Positions 16,393 to 27,300 of a DNA stretch of 44,763 nt are shown here, piece by piece. Made by a program: the position numbers and the translations under genes. This DNA is from an uncultured Alphaproteobacteria bacterium (lineage in GTDB: Bacteria; Pseudomonadota; Alphaproteobacteria; HIMB59), in NCBI GenBank assembly GCA_902522585.1, contig CABYWI010000004.1:1-44763 (forward strand), read 5' to 3'. Position 1 is the stretch's first letter; each line of letters begins with the position of its first letter. The notes below the pieces were generated by a model that saw only the letters and a program-made list of their open reading frames with translations, searched no databases and was not told the origin of the DNA.

Positions 16393-17721
16393 TTAAGATA
16401 ATTTGGGGAGCATTGAACCGTGAGCTTCAATTAACTCATCCACCATTTTCCATATTTGATCAAGACTTAACTCTCCTGCAGTATGAGGGTCAAGCATAGC
16501 AGCATGATACACGGTTTCTTTTTTTTGAGACTTTAAAGCTTCAACTGTTAATTGTTGAACATTGATATTTGTCTGAATGAGATTTGCTAAATGCATTGGA
16601 AGAGGCACGACCGATTGAGGAACTAATTCATTTTTTCTTGTAAGACAGGGAACTTCCACACAACTATTGGAAGGAAGATTAGGTATCAAGTTTGCGTTCA
16701 AGATATTTCCATAAATGAGATCTTCTTTACCTGTCACCATACTAAGAATAATTCTAGAAGCATATTCAACCGACTTCTTGCAAACTAACTCCTTATTACT
16801 GAGCAATTGTTGTTCTTGATCATCCCATTCTAGAATTTGTTTTTCACAACGACGGATATATTCATTAATGGGAATATTAAAATCTTTTAATAATCCTTGT
16901 TGATGATTTTTAATGAACCAAGGAGTATACTCAGCGAAATGTTCTGAAGACTCAGTTACAAAATAACCAAGTCTTTTTAAAATCTCATAGCGAACATGAT
17001 TGGTACAGCCATCCCAATTAGGTCCAAAAGAACCTTCTTTGCCAACTTGATGTATTTGAGGGTATAGGTCTTGGGTTGACCCATCTGAAAGTTTTTTTTC
17101 AAACTTAGTATAAAAAGCCATATGGTTAATTCCTGAGCACTCATAGTGAATTTGATTGATATCTTCACCAATGTCTCTTGCTAAATCTGCTGCAGTCCCT
17201 TGCACAGAGTGACATAAGCCAACATATTTTAGCTCAGGTACAAAATGAGAGAGACCTAGGCAGTTTATAGCCATAGGGTTTACATACTGAAGCATTAATG
17301 CTTGAGGACACAACTCCATCATGTCTTTTGCTATATCAACAAGAACTGGAACTGTTCTTAATCCTCTCATAATTCCTCCAATGCCGAGAGTGTCCGCAAT
17401 TGTTTGTTGAAGCCCGTATTTAGCAGGAATCTCAAAATCTATAACAGTCGAGGGTTTGTAGCCACCCACTTGGATCATAACTATAACAAAATCAGAATTT
17501 TTGAGTGCCTCTTTGCGGTCTGCTATGGTTTTAATTTTGGCTGAGGTTCCAATTGCCGATGATACTTTCTCAGCAACTAATTGAGAGGTTTGGAGTCGTT
17601 TATCATCAATATCGTGAAGGATAATATGTGATGATTGAAGTTCTGGCTCTAACAAAACATCAGTTAAAATATTTTTCATAAAAACTGTACTGCCGGCTCC
17701 AATAAATACTATTTTTGTCAT
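16393..17721 (-). CDS. melA: GH4 alpha-galactosidase (melibiase)
   Basis: 442-aa NAD/Mn-dependent alpha-galactosidase close to E. coli MelA. The Rossmann motif is 'IVFIGAGSTVF' and the downstream 'IADTLGIGGIMRGLRT' is strongly MelA-like. Metal and substrate motifs are 'QYVNPMAIN', 'GLCHSVQGTA' (the CHSVQ of alpha-galactosidases) and 'GINHMAFY'. It releases galactose from melibiose- or raffinose-type sugars and feeds galK-galT-galE. It follows the permease gene after 2 nt. Compare the first GH4 enzyme (4591-5907), which has CHE instead. Confidence 0.94.
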   Translation of the reverse strand: MTKIVFIGAGSTVFMKNILTDVLLEPELQSSHIILHDIDDKRLQTSQLVAEKVSSAIGTSAKIKTIADRKEALKNSDFVIVMIQVGGYKPSTVIDFEIPAKYGLQQTIADTLGIGGIMRGLRTVPVLVDIAKDMMELCPQALMLQYVNPMAINCLGLSHFVPELKYVGLCHSVQGTAADLARDIGEDINQIHYECSGINHMAFYTKFEKKLSDGSTQDLYPQIHQVGKEGSFGPNWDGCTNHVRYEILKRLGYFVTESSEHFAEYTPWFIKNHQQGLLKDFNIPINEYIRRCEKQILEWDDQEQQLLSNKELVCKKSVEYASRIILSMVTGKEDLIYGNILNANLIPNLPSNSCVEVPCLTRKNELVPQSVVPLPMHLANLIQTNINVQQLTVEALKSQKKETVYHAAMLDPHTAGELSLDQIWKMVDELIEAHGSMLPKLS

Positions 17722-17723
17722 AA

Positions 17724-18575
17724 CTAACCCTTACTCGCACCTAAAGTTAAACCTGCAATAAAATGTTTTTGCATTAAGAAAAACATCATCACAGGTGGAA
17801 TTGCGGCCATAATCGATCCGGCTGAAAGAAGATGATAAGCAGATATCCACTGACCATTGAGTGATTTTAATCCTGCAGTAACTGGCATTGCATGTTGGCC
17901 TTGAATAAGAACTGTTGCCCAAAAATAATCATTCCAAATAAATGTGAAAATTAAAACACATAGAGCTGCTATCGCAGGACGAGTAAGAGGAAGTACTATT
18001 TTTAAAAAAATATTAAATTCGGAAGTCCCATCAATTCTTGCAGCTTCTAAAAGCTCATGGGGAAGGGCTTTAATAAAATTTCTCATAAATAAAGTACAAA
18101 ATCCTGTTTGGAATGCGACATGAAATAAAACCAAACCTGTGATTGTATCATATAGGCCCATTTGAAAAGTTAAGTCTCTGACAGGTATCATTAAGATTTG
18201 AAAAGGAACAAAGTTTCCTGCAATAAAAGTAAAAAAGATAAATAAATTTGCTTTGAATTTATAGGCAGCTAAAGCAAACCCTGTCATACAACTTAGTGCG
18301 ACAGCGCCAATCATTGTAGGAATAGTAATTTTAAAACTATTTATAATGTATGAGAGCATGGGAGTATTTTGAAATACATCTGCCATATTGCTAAAAAATA
18401 AAAACTCTGATGGAGTGCCCCAAAGGTTTCCAGCTGTGATATCACCTAAACCTCGAATAGAAGTCATCATTATGCCCGCTAAGGGCACCAACCAAATAGC
18501 TAAAGAGAACGGAACAAGGATTTTATATGAGACTTGATTGAAAAAAGGCCTTTTTTGGATGGGAGTGGGAAACAT
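17724..18575 (-). CDS. Sugar ABC transporter permease, MalG-like
   Basis: 283-aa inner-membrane permease of the second importer. Six hydrophobic segments are evident, beginning around residue 18 ('ILVPFSLAIWLVPLAGIMM'). The EAA loop is 'HELLEAARIDGTSEFNIFLK'. The C-terminal 'KHFIAGLTLGASKG' is typical of carbohydrate permeases of the CUT1 class. It is 4 nt downstream of the partner permease and 2 nt upstream of melA, which suggests alpha-galactoside substrates. It lacks the periplasmic insert seen in AglG. Confidence 0.9.
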   Translation of the reverse strand: MFPTPIQKRPFFNQVSYKILVPFSLAIWLVPLAGIMMTSIRGLGDITAGNLWGTPSEFLFFSNMADVFQNTPMLSYIINSFKITIPTMIGAVALSCMTGFALAAYKFKANLFIFFTFIAGNFVPFQILMIPVRDLTFQMGLYDTITGLVLFHVAFQTGFCTLFMRNFIKALPHELLEAARIDGTSEFNIFLKIVLPLTRPAIAALCVLIFTFIWNDYFWATVLIQGQHAMPVTAGLKSLNGQWISAYHLLSAGSIMAAIPPVMMFFLMQKHFIAGLTLGASKG

Positions 18576-18579
18576 GGAT

Positions 18580-19512
18580 TTATAAGCCTTTTTTTTCGTT
18601 TTGATACATTCGGTAGATGAAGAAAACGATATAAAACATCATTATCGTAAACAGAATAGCTGCAATAGCAGATCCGTATCCCATTCGATAACCATATTCG
18701 CTCAAAGCTTGTTCAAACATATAGTACGCTAGAACATTAGTAGAGCCCCACGGCCCACCTTGGGTCATAATGGCAACCATATCAAAACTTCTCAACGCAC
18801 CTATCACAGTTACAACAATAGCAAGAAAAGTAGCTGGTCTTAATTGGGGTAAAACTATATTCCAAAATAGTGAAAAGCTCTTAGCGCCATCCATTCGACC
18901 CGCCTCAATTTGATCAGAATTAATATTATTTAATCCTGTTAAATATAAAATCATACAGTATGCAATTTGTGGGTATAATCCTGCAAAAATAATTCCATAA
19001 GTGGCATAATCTTCATCTGCTAAAATAGACCATCCCTCTAGGCCAATAAAATTCAAAAAAGGTGCAATCGCTCCATAGTCAGGACGATAAAACCACGTAA
19101 AGATTAAACCAATAACTACTTGAGAAATTACAAAGGGAAAGAAGAAGAGAGATTTGACTACGCGTATACCAAAGATAGTTTGATTTAAAAAAATAGCTAA
19201 GCCCAAACCTACTGGAACAGCTAACATAAAACAAACTAACCATTTAACATTATTCCAAAGAGCTACATAAAAATATTCATCATCAAAAAGCATAATGTAA
19301 TTTTCGAGGCCAATAAAAGTTTTAGGGGACAAACCATCCCATTGATAAAGAGAAATTGTTAAGGAACTAAGAATTGGCCAGATTACATAAACTACAAAAA
19401 ATAATAGACCAGGTGTTAAAAAAATTATTGGTGTAAGTTTTTGTTGATGCCTCTTCCACCAGGAAGATTGACGAATTGTTCTAGTTGAAATTGAACTGGC
19501 AGCTTGGCTCAT
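18580..19512 (-). CDS. Sugar ABC transporter permease, MalF-like
   Basis: 310-aa inner-membrane permease. A short cytoplasmic N-terminus precedes the first helix at about residues 27-49 ('ITPIIFLTP...' onward). The EAA loop is 'SDQIEAGRMDGAKSFSLFW' near residues 217-235. 'AIMTQGGPWGSTNVLAYYMF' is a conserved CUT1 segment. It is separated from the upstream binding-protein gene by 60 nt containing a strong hairpin. Substrate is inferred from the neighbours melA, galT, galK and galE. Confidence 0.9.
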   Translation of the reverse strand: MSQAASSISTRTIRQSSWWKRHQQKLTPIIFLTPGLLFFVVYVIWPILSSLTISLYQWDGLSPKTFIGLENYIMLFDDEYFYVALWNNVKWLVCFMLAVPVGLGLAIFLNQTIFGIRVVKSLFFFPFVISQVVIGLIFTWFYRPDYGAIAPFLNFIGLEGWSILADEDYATYGIIFAGLYPQIAYCMILYLTGLNNINSDQIEAGRMDGAKSFSLFWNIVLPQLRPATFLAIVVTVIGALRSFDMVAIMTQGGPWGSTNVLAYYMFEQALSEYGYRMGYGSAIAAILFTIMMFYIVFFIYRMYQNEKKGL

Positions 19513-19536
19513 TTTTAAAATTGAAAAATTAATTTA

Positions 19537-19559
19537 GGCAGCCTAATTAATAGGCTGCC
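19537..19559 (-). terminator. Hairpin between binding-protein and permease genes of the second importer
   Basis: GGCAGCCTA and TAGGCTGCC form a perfect 9-bp stem around a 5-nt AT loop, 13 nt after the binding-protein stop. No U-run follows on the minus strand. It sits in the same operon position as the hairpin at 2396-2429, so a role in differential expression of the abundant binding protein is likely. Confidence 0.7.
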
Positions 19560-19572
19560 CTTAAATATTAAG

Positions 19573-20817
19573 TTACTTATAAACTCTTTGGCGTACTTTT
19601 TCTAAACGCTCAAGAATTTTTTGTCTTCTATCAGGATTTGACATGTATTCCTGAAAACCCTTCATGCCCTCGGATGCCATTTCTGCTGGTGCATCTCTGT
19701 CATAGAATTGCGCCATAGCATATGCATTGTTTAACATATCAAGACCAGCGGCTAAGAAAGGATCTCCTTTTTTTACGCCAGATTTACTATTAATCGGAAG
19801 CTGACCTAGCATTTTGTTTACTTCCTCTTGAACATCTGCACGTGACATAAAGATCAAGAATCGCTTCGCATCAGTCTTGTTTTTAGCCATAGATGGAATA
19901 TGAACAGTATCTGTAGGGGCTTCTTCTGCCATTGGGATACCTGGAGTAATTTCAGGGAACTGGAAGAAACCTAAATTTGAGTCACTTAAACCAGCTTCTT
20001 TTAATGGAGCAACAGCAAAGTTACCCATTACATACATCGCTGCTTCACCGTTAACCATCGGAGCTAAAGCTTCTTGCCAACTAAGAGCTGCGTGATTTTC
20101 TAGGAAGTAACCTGGCTTCACAAGCTCATCCCATTTATCAAATACTGCCTGCACTTTTGGATCTGTGTAAGGAACTTTACCTAATGTTAAATCCATGTGG
20201 AACTCATAACCATTTGTTCTAAGATTTAAGTAATCAAAAACACCTGCTGTTGTCCAAAGATACTTTGAACCAATAGTGATAGGTGTAATTCCTGCTTCCT
20301 TTAAAGTAGCGCATGCTGCAACGAATTCATCCCAAGTTTTAGGTACTGAGATGCCATTCATAGTAAATAAATCTTTTCTGTAATACACACCCCACTGATA
20401 ATAAGTGTAAGGGATACCCCACTGCTTACCACCAATAGTCATAGATTTTTTGGCATGCTCCATATTTTCAGTAAGGTTACCGTCTACCCATCCTGAGTCT
20501 GCCCAAATGTCAGACACATCTTCAAATAAACCTGCTCTTACAAATGGTAACATTCTATTTCCAGCGTACCAGTTTGCGACATCAGGCGGGTTGGTGTTTA
20601 AAAAGTTTCTAATTGATTGTTTGTAACCCTCGTGGTCAAAAAGATTCCACTCAACAGTTACATCTGGGTTTTCTTCTTCGAATTTATTAATAATCCATTC
20701 AAAAGCTGCTTTTGGTGCAGGATCAGAAGTATCAGTATTGATGACTAAAGTACCAGCAAAAGCAGAAGAATAACCCAAGCTTGCTATAGCGATTAACGTA
20801 GCTAAGATTTTTCTCAT
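19573..20817 (-). CDS. Extracellular sugar-binding protein of ABC importer (CUT1)
   Basis: 414-aa periplasmic binding protein. A Sec signal peptide is visible with probable cleavage after 'SSAFA' (residue 21). The mature part has the type-1 extracellular solute-binding fold: 'AAFEWIINKFEEENPDVTV', 'NPPDVANWYAGN', and 'WGIPYTYYQWGVYYRKDLF' in the hinge region. RBS AGGAGG lies 9 nt before the ATG. Genes for two permeases, melA, galT and galK follow, so alpha-galactosides such as melibiose or raffinose are the likely ligands. It is intact, unlike the binding protein of region 1. Confidence 0.92.
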   Translation of the reverse strand: MRKILATLIAIASLGYSSAFAGTLVINTDTSDPAPKAAFEWIINKFEEENPDVTVEWNLFDHEGYKQSIRNFLNTNPPDVANWYAGNRMLPFVRAGLFEDVSDIWADSGWVDGNLTENMEHAKKSMTIGGKQWGIPYTYYQWGVYYRKDLFTMNGISVPKTWDEFVAACATLKEAGITPITIGSKYLWTTAGVFDYLNLRTNGYEFHMDLTLGKVPYTDPKVQAVFDKWDELVKPGYFLENHAALSWQEALAPMVNGEAAMYVMGNFAVAPLKEAGLSDSNLGFFQFPEITPGIPMAEEAPTDTVHIPSMAKNKTDAKRFLIFMSRADVQEEVNKMLGQLPINSKSGVKKGDPFLAAGLDMLNNAYAMAQFYDRDAPAEMASEGMKGFQEYMSNPDRRQKILERLEKVRQRVYK

Positions 20818-22522: not shown

Positions 22523-23557
22523 TTATTTTACACCTAATTTTTTCTGAATATCTTTAGAAGAAGTCGTATAACGAAAAACGTATTTCTTATCATTATGACA
22601 ATAATGAAACATTTTCTTTGCAGCTAAAGCAGCCTCATGAAAACCGCTTAAAATCAATTTTAACTTACCGGGATAGATACAGATATCTCCAATAGCAAAA
22701 ATTCGAGGAGTGGATGTTTCAAAGTTTTCTGTATTCACCGAGATTAAATTATTTTCTAAATTTAAACCCCATTCTGCAATTGGTCCTAATTCGATCTTTA
22801 ATCCAAAAAAAGGAAAGATAGCATCAATGCCATCAATAACAGTGTCATCGTCTAAAGTAACATCAACTTGACCTTTTCCATTGTCTATAATTTTTTTAAC
22901 TGTGCCCATATTGAATTTTACTTCTCCTTTATCAACTAGGTTCATTACTTTGTTCACAGAGTCTTGAACGCCTTTAAATTCTTTGCGACGATGAATTAAT
23001 GTAATATCTGAGGCAATTTGATGAAAGCCCATTACGTAATCTAAAGCAGAGTCTCCACCACCTGCGATTAGAATTTTTTTTCTTTCAAAATCTGCTCTAT
23101 TTTTGACTGAGTAGAAAATATTTTTATTTTCAAACTCATCTATGTTTGGAACAGGTAATTTACGGGGAACAAAACAACCAGAACCAGCAGCAATCACTAA
23201 AGACTTACATTTGATGACGGTATCTAAATTAGTAGTAACTTCAATATAATCATTTTGAACATCAATTTTGGAAGTCAATTGATTAAGATGATAAGTGGGC
23301 TCAAAAGGCTCAGCCTGAGTGATTAAATCATCGGTTAATTTTTGACCTGTAATAGCTGGTCGAGACGGAATATCGTAGAGGTTTTTATCAGGATACAGTT
23401 CTGAACATTGCCCTCCAATTTTATCTAAATTATCGATTAAATGGGCCTTCATATCTAAAAGTCCTAATTCAAATACTTGAAATAAACCACAAGGTCCGGC
23501 ACCTATAATAACAACGTCTGTATCATGCTGGTTTCCTGGTTCTACAATATTACTCAT
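22523..23557 (-). CDS. Ferredoxin/flavodoxin-NADP reductase, thioredoxin-reductase-like
   Basis: 344-aa flavoprotein of the TrxR-like ferredoxin-NADP reductase family. FAD motif 'VVIIGAGPCGLFQ' is near residue 15, 'GGQCSELYPDKNLYDIP' follows, and the NADPH motif is 'ILIAGGGDSALDY'. 'RIFAIGDICIYPGKLKLI' is the conserved C-terminal FAD contact. The CxxC redox pair of true thioredoxin reductases is absent, which separates it from TrxB. It lies 35 nt downstream of the MDR gene and in line with the Rieske oxygenase, so it may supply electrons to that oxygenase through a ferredoxin-like carrier. Confidence 0.9.
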   Translation of the reverse strand: MSNIVEPGNQHDTDVVIIGAGPCGLFQVFELGLLDMKAHLIDNLDKIGGQCSELYPDKNLYDIPSRPAITGQKLTDDLITQAEPFEPTYHLNQLTSKIDVQNDYIEVTTNLDTVIKCKSLVIAAGSGCFVPRKLPVPNIDEFENKNIFYSVKNRADFERKKILIAGGGDSALDYVMGFHQIASDITLIHRRKEFKGVQDSVNKVMNLVDKGEVKFNMGTVKKIIDNGKGQVDVTLDDDTVIDGIDAIFPFFGLKIELGPIAEWGLNLENNLISVNTENFETSTPRIFAIGDICIYPGKLKLILSGFHEAALAAKKMFHYCHNDKKYVFRYTTSSKDIQKKLGVK

Positions 23558-23592: not shown

Positions 23593-24678
23593 TTATGGTA
23601 TTAATACAATTTTTCCAATGAATTTCTTCTCCATAAATACTTTTTGAGCTTTATGAATCTCTTTTAAAGGAAATGATTGGGCTACCAAAGGTTTAATTTG
23701 TCCCTCTTCAATATAACGAATAACATTTTCAAAAACGAAGGGATCATTGACTGTCGATCCATATAAAGTGAGATCTTTTAAATAAAGACTTCTTAAATCA
23801 AGGTCCACAATGGGACCTGCAATAGCCCCTGAAGTCACATATTTACCTCCAGGTTTAATTATATCTAATAGTTGGGACCAACTAGAACCCCCAACTAAAT
23901 CAACTACTACATCAACTGAATTTTCACCTAATACTCTAACTAAATTATCTGATCGATTAACAGTTTGGTTGGCACCTAAGTCTTTTAAAGAACTTGCCTT
24001 GTCAGGAGCACATTTAGCAATGATTGTTGCCCCTCGAATTTTTGCTAATTGAATTGCAGCAGAACCCACTCCCCCTGATGCGCCTGTTATCAAAATTTTT
24101 TCATTTTCAATATCTGTTCGGTAAAGCATACCCTCAGCAGTGGAATAAGAGATCGGAATAGATGCTAGTTCGATATCACTCCAGTCACAATTTATAGGAA
24201 ATGACTCTTTTGCCTTAGCCACACAATATTGAGCAAAACCTCCGTCAACCTCAGAGCCCATTGTTTGCATCTCTAAAGGATTATTTGAAGTTGGATTATT
24301 TTGCATTGATCGAACTATGGTACGAGTACCAATTCGATCTTGCTCTACACCTTCGCCCACTTGCACAATTATCCCGCAAATATCTCCACCTTGAATTCTT
24401 GGAAACTTTAATGGAACCCCAGTCCATGATGCATCACTATCATCGACTTCGGACAAACCCTCAGTGCCGCCAGCATTAGTATCACTGGTCACTTTTTTTG
24501 AATACCAACCAAGTCGCGTATTGATATCTGTGTTGTTGACACCAGCGCCTTTTACTTCGATTAGCACTTCTCCAACTCCTGGCACAGGAGTAGGAATATC
24601 TTCTTGATAAACTAATTTTTCTAGTCCACCGTGCCCAGTTAAGTAGACACCTGACATTACCTTAGGAATGGGTTCCAT
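23593..24678 (-). CDS. MDR-superfamily alcohol dehydrogenase/quinone oxidoreductase-like protein
   Basis: 361-aa medium-chain dehydrogenase/reductase. The N-terminal GroES-like fold has 'EVLIEVKGAGVNNTDINTR' and 'FPRIQGGDICGIIVQVGEGV'. The NAD(P) motif is 'ITGASGGVGSAAIQLAK'. The catalytic-zinc Cys of classical alcohol dehydrogenases is not seen, so it probably acts as a zinc-free reductase. Substrate is unknown. It lies 33 nt after the Rieske oxygenase and 35 nt before the reductase gene, all on one strand, which suggests a shared pathway. Confidence 0.85.
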   Translation of the reverse strand: MEPIPKVMSGVYLTGHGGLEKLVYQEDIPTPVPGVGEVLIEVKGAGVNNTDINTRLGWYSKKVTSDTNAGGTEGLSEVDDSDASWTGVPLKFPRIQGGDICGIIVQVGEGVEQDRIGTRTIVRSMQNNPTSNNPLEMQTMGSEVDGGFAQYCVAKAKESFPINCDWSDIELASIPISYSTAEGMLYRTDIENEKILITGASGGVGSAAIQLAKIRGATIIAKCAPDKASSLKDLGANQTVNRSDNLVRVLGENSVDVVVDLVGGSSWSQLLDIIKPGGKYVTSGAIAGPIVDLDLRSLYLKDLTLYGSTVNDPFVFENVIRYIEEGQIKPLVAQSFPLKEIHKAQKVFMEKKFIGKIVLIP

Positions 24679-24711: not shown

Positions 24712-25905
24712 TTAAAAGCCATTTAATATTTTTCTTGCATACCAGTCGTGAAATACATGCGTGGGTTCATCCATCACTGGGGAAAATCGACCACCATCAA
24801 ATCCTTTTGCATATCGGCCTTTTTGCATTCCCTCGACAACAAAAATGTCCTCTTCAAATACAGTCTTCCATAATTTGGCATTTTCCTGGCGAGTTTCTTT
24901 ATATTCATCAGCTAATAAAAAAGGGTCTGAGTAATAAAGTTCAATATGCTCTCGAATTTTATTTGGCGCTAGTGGCTCAATAATAAGATTAAAAATATGG
25001 TCTTTTTGAACACCTAAAATTAAGTTTGGAAATAAAACTATATACTCACCTTTTGTATCCCACTCTGGTCCTAAGTTTTTAAAATTAGTGAATTGTTTTC
25101 CGGTGGCGTACTGAGGAATGTACTTGTAACTAATTTGACCTGCATAATGTCCATACTCCACAATATTTTCATGATCTTCTAATTTAGAGTAGCTATTCAA
25201 ACCAGGGTGAACCCAAGGCAAATGATAAGACTCTAAATAATTTTCTACTGCTAATTTCCAGTTTCCATTTACTTCTAATTTAAAAGAAGAGTCGCTCATA
25301 TCAGAATATATCGGCTGCTCAAAAACAGACCAACGGTCTAATAAAGGTTGATGAACTTCTTCAAAAGGAGGGGCCATTCCATCAGGGTTGACGAATATCA
25401 CATCACGCCAAATATGGGATCGTACTTCTAATAATGAGAGTTCACTTTTATTGATACCTGAGTGATAGTTATAACCTGGACCTCCAATATGTGGAGTGGC
25501 TACTACTTCACCAGTTTGTTTATAGCACCATGAATGGTAAGGACAGCGGATTGCGCCTTTTAAAACTGTGGGTTCTTCAATTAGAATCATACCACGATGT
25601 CGACAAACATTTTGAAAGACTCTGATTTTTTCATCTTGTTTACTTCTAACAATTAATAATGGATTATTAAAATAATTTACAGGAACAGCAGAGCCAAGCT
25701 GAGGCAGATCTTTTACAAATCCAACAGCAAACCATCCTTTATTAAATAAATGTTCTCCCTCCATCTCAAAACATTCTGAGCGGATATAGTATTCGTTAGG
25801 AACCCCATGTGCTTTGTGGATGGGATTTGTGCATCCCTGTAATTGATGACGTTTTGGAATAAATAAATCTTCGTGAGATAACTTTTGCAAATCTACCTTT
25901 TCCAT
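24712..25905 (-). CDS. Rieske non-heme iron oxygenase, alpha subunit (quaternary-amine/ring-hydroxylating type)
   Basis: 397-aa oxygenase. The Rieske [2Fe-2S] ligands are C101 and H103 in 'VCRHRG' and C121 and H124 in 'RCPYHSW'. The mononuclear iron triad is H228 and H233 in 'ESYHLPWVH' with D353 in 'EEDIFVVEGMQKG'. This layout fits the group of choline/betaine/carnitine monooxygenases better than typical aromatic dioxygenases, and no beta subunit gene is adjacent. Substrate is not determined. RBS TAGGAG precedes the ATG. It is divergent from the dddP-like gene and heads the oxygenase-MDR-reductase unit. Confidence 0.88.
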   Translation of the reverse strand: MEKVDLQKLSHEDLFIPKRHQLQGCTNPIHKAHGVPNEYYIRSECFEMEGEHLFNKGWFAVGFVKDLPQLGSAVPVNYFNNPLLIVRSKQDEKIRVFQNVCRHRGMILIEEPTVLKGAIRCPYHSWCYKQTGEVVATPHIGGPGYNYHSGINKSELSLLEVRSHIWRDVIFVNPDGMAPPFEEVHQPLLDRWSVFEQPIYSDMSDSSFKLEVNGNWKLAVENYLESYHLPWVHPGLNSYSKLEDHENIVEYGHYAGQISYKYIPQYATGKQFTNFKNLGPEWDTKGEYIVLFPNLILGVQKDHIFNLIIEPLAPNKIREHIELYYSDPFLLADEYKETRQENAKLWKTVFEEDIFVVEGMQKGRYAKGFDGGRFSPVMDEPTHVFHDWYARKILNGF

Positions 25906-26016: not shown

Positions 26017-27300
26017 ATGAGGAATTTTACTAGTAAATTTGCCAATAGAAAAATTGGGCCTAAATTCTCAGAGGTCATCAATCAAAATGTCGGCACTCAG
26101 CAGTACAAGCCTTATTTATATGAAGATCAAATTAATTTTGACCGGCTAAGGATGTATCGTCTTAATAGAATAATTGAACAACTTCAAAAAAACGATGTAG
26201 GGGCTTGTATTTTATTTGATCCTATCAATATTCGTTATGCAACAGATAGTAGAAATATGAGTTTATTCACAATGCACGAATTAGTTCGGTTCGTCTATAT
26301 CAGCGCTGGGGGTAAGGTAATTTTATTTGATTACCCCAAAAGTGAACATTTATCTGAGAATCTTTGCACTATTGATGAAATTCGAAATGTTATCAGTTGG
26401 GATTTTTTTTCTGCAAATAATTATGTAGATAAAAATGCAAAACAATGGGCAGGTATGGTTCATGATTTAATGAAAGAACACTCTCCTAATAACCGATTAG
26501 CTATTGATGTTTCTGATCCAGTTGGCATTCAAATGCTGCTCAAACAATTTAATGTTGAGTTATTAAATGCACAAAAATTTGTTGAAACTTCTCGCTCCAT
26601 TAAATCTGAAGATGAATTAGTTTGCATGAAAGCATCAATTGAAACTGCGGAAAAAGGGATGTGGTTAATGAAAGATATGCTTCAAGCAGGGATGACTGAG
26701 GAGGAACTCTGGTCCTATATGCATAAAACTAACATTGAAAATGGTGGTGAGTGGTTTGAAACTCGGCTGTTAGTTTCAGGGCCGAGAACAAACCCTTGGT
26801 TACAAGAATGTAGTAACAGGGTGATTGAGTCAGGTGATTTAGTTGCCTTTGATACAGATATGGTCGGTCCATATGGTTATTGTGCAGATATTTCGAGAAC
26901 ATTTGTTGAAGGAGGAAAATTCAGTGACGAACAAAGAAGACTTTACTCCCTCGCAACAGAACATATTCAACACAACAAAGAGCTTATCAAAACAGGTACA
27001 AGTTTTAGAGAATTTGCTGAAAAAGCCTGGGTATTACCAGACAATTGTTATGATAATCACTACCCATGCATAATTCATGGAATCGGATTATGCGATGAGT
27101 GGCCTTTTATTACTTATCCTAATAAAGATTTTTCAAATGCGGACTTCTCAGGTCACTTCGAAGAAAATATGACTATTTGTGTTGAGACATATATTGGTGA
27201 AGTAGGTGGCAAAGAGGGTGTCAAACTTGAAGATCAATATCGTGTTACAGCTAGTGGGCTTGAGCAGCTCAGCTCTTTTCCTTTAGAACGGCTAACATAA
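26017..27300 (+). CDS. dddP: DddP-type DMSP lyase (M24 peptidase-like fold)
   Basis: 427-aa M24-family protein closely resembling DddP, which cleaves dimethylsulfoniopropionate to DMS and acrylate. Metal-ligand candidates are D279 and D281 in 'FDTD', D291 in 'CADISRT', H354 in 'IHGIGLCDEWP', E390 in 'CVETYIGE' and E405 in 'KLEDQ'. Their spacing is nearly the same as the iron ligands known for Ruegeria DddP (D295, D297, D307, H371, E406, E421). D360, six residues after the His, matches the proposed catalytic Asp. 'GGEWFETRLLVSGPRTNPW' is also DddP-like. A related M24 aminopeptidase or amidohydrolase with another substrate cannot be excluded. Divergent from a Rieske oxygenase; ends 3 nt before trxA. 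Confidence 0.82.
   Translation: MRNFTSKFANRKIGPKFSEVINQNVGTQQYKPYLYEDQINFDRLRMYRLNRIIEQLQKNDVGACILFDPINIRYATDSRNMSLFTMHELVRFVYISAGGKVILFDYPKSEHLSENLCTIDEIRNVISWDFFSANNYVDKNAKQWAGMVHDLMKEHSPNNRLAIDVSDPVGIQMLLKQFNVELLNAQKFVETSRSIKSEDELVCMKASIETAEKGMWLMKDMLQAGMTEEELWSYMHKTNIENGGEWFETRLLVSGPRTNPWLQECSNRVIESGDLVAFDTDMVGPYGYCADISRTFVEGGKFSDEQRRLYSLATEHIQHNKELIKTGTSFREFAEKAWVLPDNCYDNHYPCIIHGIGLCDEWPFITYPNKDFSNADFSGHFEENMTICVETYIGEVGGKEGVKLEDQYRVTASGLEQLSSFPLERLT

Follow-up and report, generated by a model that had tools for sequence, protein, structure and literature searches.

The locus analysed here raises the question of whether a gene that carries the metal-binding and catalytic residues of the DMSP lyase DddP in a HIMB59-order alphaproteobacterium encodes a DMS-producing enzyme or one that acts on another substrate. 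The window, by which we mean the whole stretch of DNA analysed (44,763 nucleotides of contig CABYWI010000004.1, assembly GCA_902522585.1), comes from a genome (G000) of 863 kb in 59 contigs that is 54% complete and belongs to a one-genus family, and its host lineage is taken to be HIMB59/AEGEAN-169. The G+C content is 33-37% along the length of the window, which agrees with the original prediction of a low-G+C alphaproteobacterium. Among the relatives, G001 is near-complete and consists of a single contig of 1,410,127 bases. The gene and the codons at issue are the following.

26017-27300, plus strand: DddP-like M24-fold protein of 427 aa with an ATG start (open reading frame, Creatinase_N and Peptidase_M24 domains, sequence and fold matches)
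26800-26802, plus strand: codon of L262, at RlDddP F278, a departure from the DddP clade (alignment, numbered via W261)
26851-26853, plus strand: codon of D279, at RlDddP D295, metal ligand (alignment)
26857-26859, plus strand: codon of D281, at RlDddP D297, metal ligand (alignment)
26887-26889, plus strand: codon of D291, at RlDddP D307, metal ligand (alignment)
27061-27063, plus strand: codon of Y349, at RlDddP Y366 (alignment)
27076-27078, plus strand: codon of H354, at RlDddP H371, metal ligand (alignment)
27094-27096, plus strand: codon of D360, at RlDddP D377, the proposed catalytic base (alignment)
27184-27186, plus strand: codon of E390, at RlDddP E406, metal ligand (alignment)
27229-27231, plus strand: codon of E405, at RlDddP E421, metal ligand (alignment)

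Alignment to RlDddP confirmed that D279, D281, D291, H354, E390, E405 and D360 are all present, so that the query has all six DddP ligands together with the equivalents of Tyr366 and Asp377. Counted from the first Asp, the His and the two Glu follow at 75/111/126 residues, a pattern found in 25 of the 165 proteins measured; the commonest is 76/111/126 (95 rows), and the predicted deviation of at most one residue is thus correct. One position outside the original list differs, in that Leu262 of the query occupies the site of RlDddP Phe278. From the alignment and from the corresponding E. coli aminopeptidase P histidine, we take Phe278 to be the site of one of the replaced M24 histidines. According to the available text of one report, the two M24 histidines are replaced in DddP by an Asp and a Phe (PMC5395565); if F278 is the Phe meant, the query has the Asp and lacks the Phe.

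When searched against the PDB with phmmer, the query is closest to RlDddP (4rzy, E = 8e-88) and RdDddP (4.5e-81), and the next M24 entry follows at 6e-15. The curated DddP model NF043017 matches it at 2.5e-109 with 366 bits, which misses the cut-off of 600 bits. An AlphaFold model built with 21 aligned proteins (mean pLDDT 77.9) has the predicted fold of DddP; with VIA-align it superposes on RlDddP at Z 41.7 and rmsd 2.6 over 402 residues with 36% identity, as compared to Z 33.0 for a prolidase, which is the best non-DddP match, Z 31.7 for the ectoine hydrolase DoeA (6yo9) and Z 30.9 for creatinase (1kp0). The gene is also widespread among relatives. It occurs in 42 of the 52 genomes of its family (39 copies near full length and three partial), in eight of the ten family genomes with at least 90% completeness and at most 5% contamination and, as a match to NF043017, in 54 of 150 genomes of the order, none of which exceeds 600 bits (0/150). 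Thus, a DddP-like gene is common in the HIMB59 order and not universal. The notion that the conserved signature is a product of chance or of annotation, with no homology to DddP behind it, has practically no chance of being right; it is refuted by the RlDddP match, by the spread of orthologues and by the fold match at Z 41.7, and nothing was found that speaks for it.

We examined how far the residue signature extends by collecting 249 DddP-like open reading frames. Removal of proteins of <380 aa, of exact duplicates and of HIMB59 near-copies in excess of eight left 166 alignment rows including RlDddP. These rows comprise 35 from the DddP clade, 22 from HIMB59 and 109 other DddP-like proteins. 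The six ligands are kept in 35/35, 22/22 and 105/109 rows of these groups, respectively, and the six ligands plus Tyr366 and Asp377 in 35/35, 22/22 and 79/109. Because the eight-residue set is common to 79 of the 109 rows that belong to neither the DddP clade nor HIMB59, it is not diagnostic of DddP. The original prediction of a strong DddP candidate with every position conserved therefore stands as regards the fold, the dimetal site and the Asp/Tyr pair, but the step from family-wide conservation to DddP identity does not follow, and the score is 366 bits against the required 600. Two approaches were rejected in the course of this analysis, namely assignment to DddP from key residues alone, as these residues are family-wide, and a two-way comparison with RlDddP alone, which hides the DddP-like paralogues.

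Other positions separate the groups more clearly. A103 is present in 35/35 rows of the DddP clade and in about 2% of the 109 others, with Tyr or Phe in the HIMB59 rows (Phe in the query). G282 is likewise found in 35/35 rows of the DddP clade and in 22/109 others, with Ser or Asn in HIMB59 (Ser in the query). L129 is a DddP-clade marker that occurs in 6% of the others and is Thr in the query. W95 is kept in 35/35 DddP-clade rows and in 72/109 others and is Phe in 22/22 HIMB59 rows. The F278 site is Phe in 33 and Tyr in two of the 35 DddP-clade rows, Leu in 11, Phe in 10 and Met in one of the 22 HIMB59 rows, and Phe in 82/109 others. In this alignment, A103, L129 and G282 mark the DddP clade best. 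A separate observation is that Gly occupies the Asp377 site in 21/109 other DddP-like rows, among them a subclade (L214, L193, L205, L184, L191, L196, L198 and L218) that keeps the six ligands and, with Gly at this site, cannot use the proposed DddP base.

DddP-like genes are also found well beyond the order. The DddP model had matches at E<=1e-40 in 79 of 385 alphaproteobacterial genomes, 12 of them over the cut-off, and in 41 of 398 genomes of the phylum, 17 of them over the cut-off. Several genomes have at least four such matches each, and the true number can be higher; genome G234 has five DddP-like genes within one 19-kb stretch. A search for related loci in viral contigs gave no match. 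Nine rows of the DddP clade itself, at 509-592 bits, fall under the NF043017 cut-off, and a score below it does not by itself prove exclusion from that clade.

Clade placement was addressed with a careful tree of 103 of the 166 rows, in which RlDddP is the only activity-tested enzyme that is a named row (Oceanimonas DddP2, HWgs001 and the fungal DddPs being outside the set) and in which 11 HIMB59 rows were flagged for odd amino-acid composition. In this tree the DddP clade (100/99) and the HIMB59 clade (100/100) are separate, with HIMB59 outside the DddP clade, the kind of placement that the original prediction had itself named as counting against it. A branch with 98/95 support joins the DddP clade to seven other rows and excludes HIMB59, which groups with L161 at a modest 80/83. 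HIMB59 also falls outside in a FastTree phylogeny rooted on another M24 protein, where support near the root is weak. When HIMB59 and the DddP clade were forced together, the AU test on the same rows gave p = 0.057 with a log-likelihood 41.7 lower, which is not rejected at 5%. The separation of HIMB59 from the DddP clade is thus likely, and not final.

Several individual sequences deserve mention here. The gene at L058:86-1372, from a MAG labelled Gammaproteobacteria bacterium TMED225, is an 83% identical HIMB59 orthologue, which indicates that the label or the binning is probably wrong. In L073 the frames of the DddP-like, Rieske, homocysteine S-methyltransferase, metK and ahcY genes are all broken, and the DddP-like match at G007:C1 has eight internal stops; both look like assembly error and not gene decay. 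G001, a HIMB59-type genome, also encodes another, only distantly related DddP-like M24 protein (L242:898-2184, 104 bits to NF043017), flanked by open reading frames that resemble, by eye, a short-chain dehydrogenase and a dehydrogenase E1.

These placements bear on the possibility that the gene encodes a working, divergent DMSP lyase that functions as DddP, by which HIMB59 would form DMS and acrylate in addition to using DmdA. Its nearest solved relatives by sequence and by fold are DddPs, and the ligands, Tyr366 and Asp377 are kept in every HIMB59 row; against this stand the missed NF043017 cut-off, the best tree, which keeps it apart from the DddP clade, the absence of A103, W95 and G282, and the Leu at the F278 site. 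There is some indication that the activity is not confined to that clade. In the available text of its report, HWgs001 is a tested, active DddP with ligands at D263/D265/D275/H339 (PMC10989825); this four-ligand numbering equals that of L115 and L150, both of which lie outside the DddP clade, so that DMSP lyase activity may reach beyond it.

The metabolic setting gives a divided answer as well. DmdA, the DMSP demethylase, is over its cut-off in 121/150 genomes of the order, the window's own genome included, which suggests that the lineage probably uses DMSP. In one genome, G002 (L227), the DddP-like gene is divergent to an adjacent dmdA (493 bits, cut-off 410). On the other side, AcuI, a usual acrylyl-CoA reductase of the DMSP cleavage route, was matched at E<=1e-60 in 0/150 genomes of the order, as compared to two of 14 control genomes (one over the cut-off); an AcuI relative that matches less strongly, or a different route for acrylate, may serve in its place. 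The DmdA of HIMB59 has already been published (PMC7487153), and a dddP gene in HIMB59 is not named in the available text of the literature searched, which included PMC10308909, PMC10734472, PMC12421898, PMC7487153, PMC5069961 and PMC7440811. The main text of PMC10308909, on AEGEAN-169, has no occurrence of 'dimethyl' or 'sulfonio'. We regard a DMSP lyase as possible and, on balance, doubtful, and the neighbouring genes, the most informative of which are of the betaine or carnitine type, count further against it. In the window these neighbours are the following.

24712-25905, minus strand: alpha subunit of a Rieske oxygenase, divergent to the DddP-like gene and 111 bp apart from it (PF00355 and PF00848)
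23593-24678, minus strand: zinc-type MDR dehydrogenase/quinone oxidoreductase, 45 bits to the AcuI model (cut-off 440) (profile matches)
22523-23557, minus strand: thioredoxin-reductase-like flavoprotein (profile matches)

The Rieske gene does face the DddP-like gene, as had been predicted, and its best solved match is the carnitine monooxygenase CntA (6y8j, 100 bits), followed by 3vca (78) and 4qup (77), which we take to be proline-betaine demethylases. With its Rieske and ring-hydroxylating alpha domains and a best solved match in that group, the protein has the traits of the CntA/GbcA/Stc2 group; it scores 106 bits against the glycine betaine monooxygenase (GbcA) equivalog NF058607, below the cut-off of 670. 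The thioredoxin-reductase-like flavoprotein could possibly be the ferredoxin reductase of the Rieske enzyme. Elsewhere in the window, positions 16393-20817 hold a carbohydrate locus adjoining galE, with a family 4 glycosyl hydrolase and a sugar-type ABC transporter (substrate-binding protein and two permeases).

Relatives within the order show a similar catabolic setting in part. We compared the 40 loci that are at least 81% identical to the query (f1) with those of another family of the order (f2). A Rieske gene lies in the fetched flanks of 10/13 f2 genomes and 14/40 f1 loci, in differing layouts; of the three f2 genomes with no nearby Rieske gene, two have the locus on contigs of <4 kb. A homocysteine S-methyltransferase is near the gene at 14/40 f1 loci. 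The linked use of methylated osmolytes that had been suggested often finds support in relatives, but 25/40 f1 loci, some of which lie at contig ends, have neither of these two genes in the flank that was fetched. Further neighbours in the order include DHDPS-, DAO- and ALDH-family genes; all three occur in the L053 segment, together with an enolase-superfamily protein whose PDB matches include 4e8g (515 bits) and 2pmq (492 bits). These two entries are hydroxyproline-betaine epimerases, and from its PDB matches the L053 protein is probably one too. The DAO-type neighbour had no match in the PDB at 1e-10. In f2 there are carnitine-dehydrogenase-like (362 bits, cut-off 592) and gamma-butyrobetaine-dioxygenase-like (343 bits, cut-off 415) neighbours as well as large OYE-type genes. 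One of the latter, of 680 aa, has an OYE family as its best NCBIfam match, below the cut-off, and presumably resembles N-methylproline demethylase.

A gene for a 362-370-aa protein (L032:7892-8986 and equivalents) lies 5' of the DddP-like gene on the same strand at 33/40 f1 loci and in many of them overlaps its start by eight bases; it is absent from this place in the window. For the 364-aa form, neither Pfam (at 1e-5) nor NCBIfam (at 1e-15) gave a match, and its predicted structure has a mean pLDDT of 53.8. The protein contains a stretch, FDAGTGDG, that looks to us like a methyltransferase motif.

Beyond the order, demethylation-type neighbours were found at 24/80 DddP-like loci, as compared to 6/55 control stretches drawn from the genomes concerned (Fisher p = 0.011), in tests that count related loci as independent and that use query families taken from HIMB59 loci, with the MttB query taken from one test locus. 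Specifically, DMGDH-type genes occur at 15/80 loci versus 2/55 controls (p = 0.009), PhyH-type genes at 9/80 versus 1/55 (p = 0.048), MttB-family genes at 12/80 versus 2/55 (p = 0.044) and Rieske genes alone at 8/80 versus 1/55 (p = 0.08). ALDH (5/80 versus 4/55) and DAO (4/80 versus 1/55) genes were not enriched at the DddP-like loci. An MttB gene adjoins the DddP-like paralogues at L156:3752-6930, L141, L142, L148, L149, L151, L157, L158, L165, L174, L180 and L194, and an MttB-family neighbour was seen at none of the HIMB59 loci fetched.

The enrichment of DMGDH-type demethylases also speaks for a hydrolase in the manner of creatinase, ectoine hydrolase or prolidase, one that uses the DddP-like scaffold for C-N hydrolysis of a small osmolyte or of an N-acyl or prolyl betaine and has no lyase activity. 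Creatinase and DoeA, both small-osmolyte hydrolases, share the pita-bread fold. However, by sequence and fold the query is nearer to DddP than to creatinase, DoeA or prolidase, and one M24 histidine site is Asp360 as in DddP, a change proposed in the available text of PMC5395565 to abolish peptidase activity. We consider such a hydrolase unlikely.

The explanation that we tentatively favour, while stopping short of calling it probable, is that of a dimetal enzyme with the DddP fold that belongs to a large DddP-like family and, on the best tree, is placed apart from the DMSP-lyase clade. Its most likely role would be in degrading a methylated zwitterionic osmolyte, more probably of the quaternary-ammonium (betaine or carnitine) type than DMSP. 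In the available text on RdDddP, the two metals may attract the substrate carboxylate while Asp377 (or Tyr366) takes the alpha proton (PMC4108388). As every residue named for that mechanism is present in the query, it is naturally read as an enzyme that binds a carboxylate and abstracts a proton. In the HIMB59 enzyme the substrate carboxylate would be bound by the two metals, while Asp360 could, with the help of Tyr349, abstract a proton and so drive loss of an onium group or closely related chemistry. It is the neighbours, with their betaine and onium catabolism in part of the relatives, that favour a quaternary-ammonium osmolyte as the substrate; the adjacency to dmdA in G002 points to DMSP and counts against this explanation. 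A broader proposal, which we hold to be a serious possibility without thinking it likely, is that DddP is one twig of a large DddP-fold family acting on quaternary-ammonium osmolytes, that the HIMB59/AEGEAN-169 enzyme would be an undescribed betaine- or carnitine-type lyase, and that part of the ocean dddP counts would belong to this nitrogen branch.

The distinction matters for such counts. In the available text of one coastal isolation study, HIMB59 is listed with the taxa that are abundant at salinities above 12 (PMC7440811), and most genomes of the family carry the gene. An ocean survey, from the portion of its text available, used hmmsearch at 1E-30 for DddP (PMC8520302). With 2.5e-109 to NF043017 the query would very likely pass this threshold and be counted as dddP; its identity to DddP-clade rows is 35-47%, which may or may not pass the survey's second criterion. 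The survey's residue check would keep the gene, as the eight residues are kept family-wide and key-residue checks would not remove it. The same available text lists Pelagibacterales under the DddD/DddK/DddP/DddQ cleavage pathway (PMC8520302), and part of that entry may be the HIMB59 lineage. Whether or not the gene produces DMS bears on estimates of oceanic DMSP cleavage, and if its substrate is a nitrogen osmolyte it would represent an unassigned step in betaine turnover. On its present signature the gene is best described as DddP-like and should not be counted as a DMS maker.

In comparison with known systems, the query shares with DddP (RlDddP 4rzy, RdDddP 4b28, NF043017) the predicted fold, the domain layout, the six ligands and the equivalents of Tyr366 and Asp377. 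It is 38% identical to RlDddP over aligned columns and departs from it by F278L, W95F, A103F and G282S, and the match to the DddP profile starts at position 50 for the query as compared to 1-17 for the DddP-clade rows listed. Its nearest relatives outside the order are the alphaproteobacterial DddP-like paralogues L161, L152, L146 and L156, which are 47-50% identical, have the same eight residues and, like the query, fall below the NF043017 cut-off (402-416 bits); they differ in that HIMB59 forms its own clade (100/100) and in that some paralogues, such as L156, have MttB neighbours that the HIMB59 loci lack. Creatinase and the ectoine hydrolase DoeA/EutD have the pita-bread fold in common with the query at 16-18% identity and a Z of about 31, versus 41.7 for DddP, and both act on small zwitterionic substrates.
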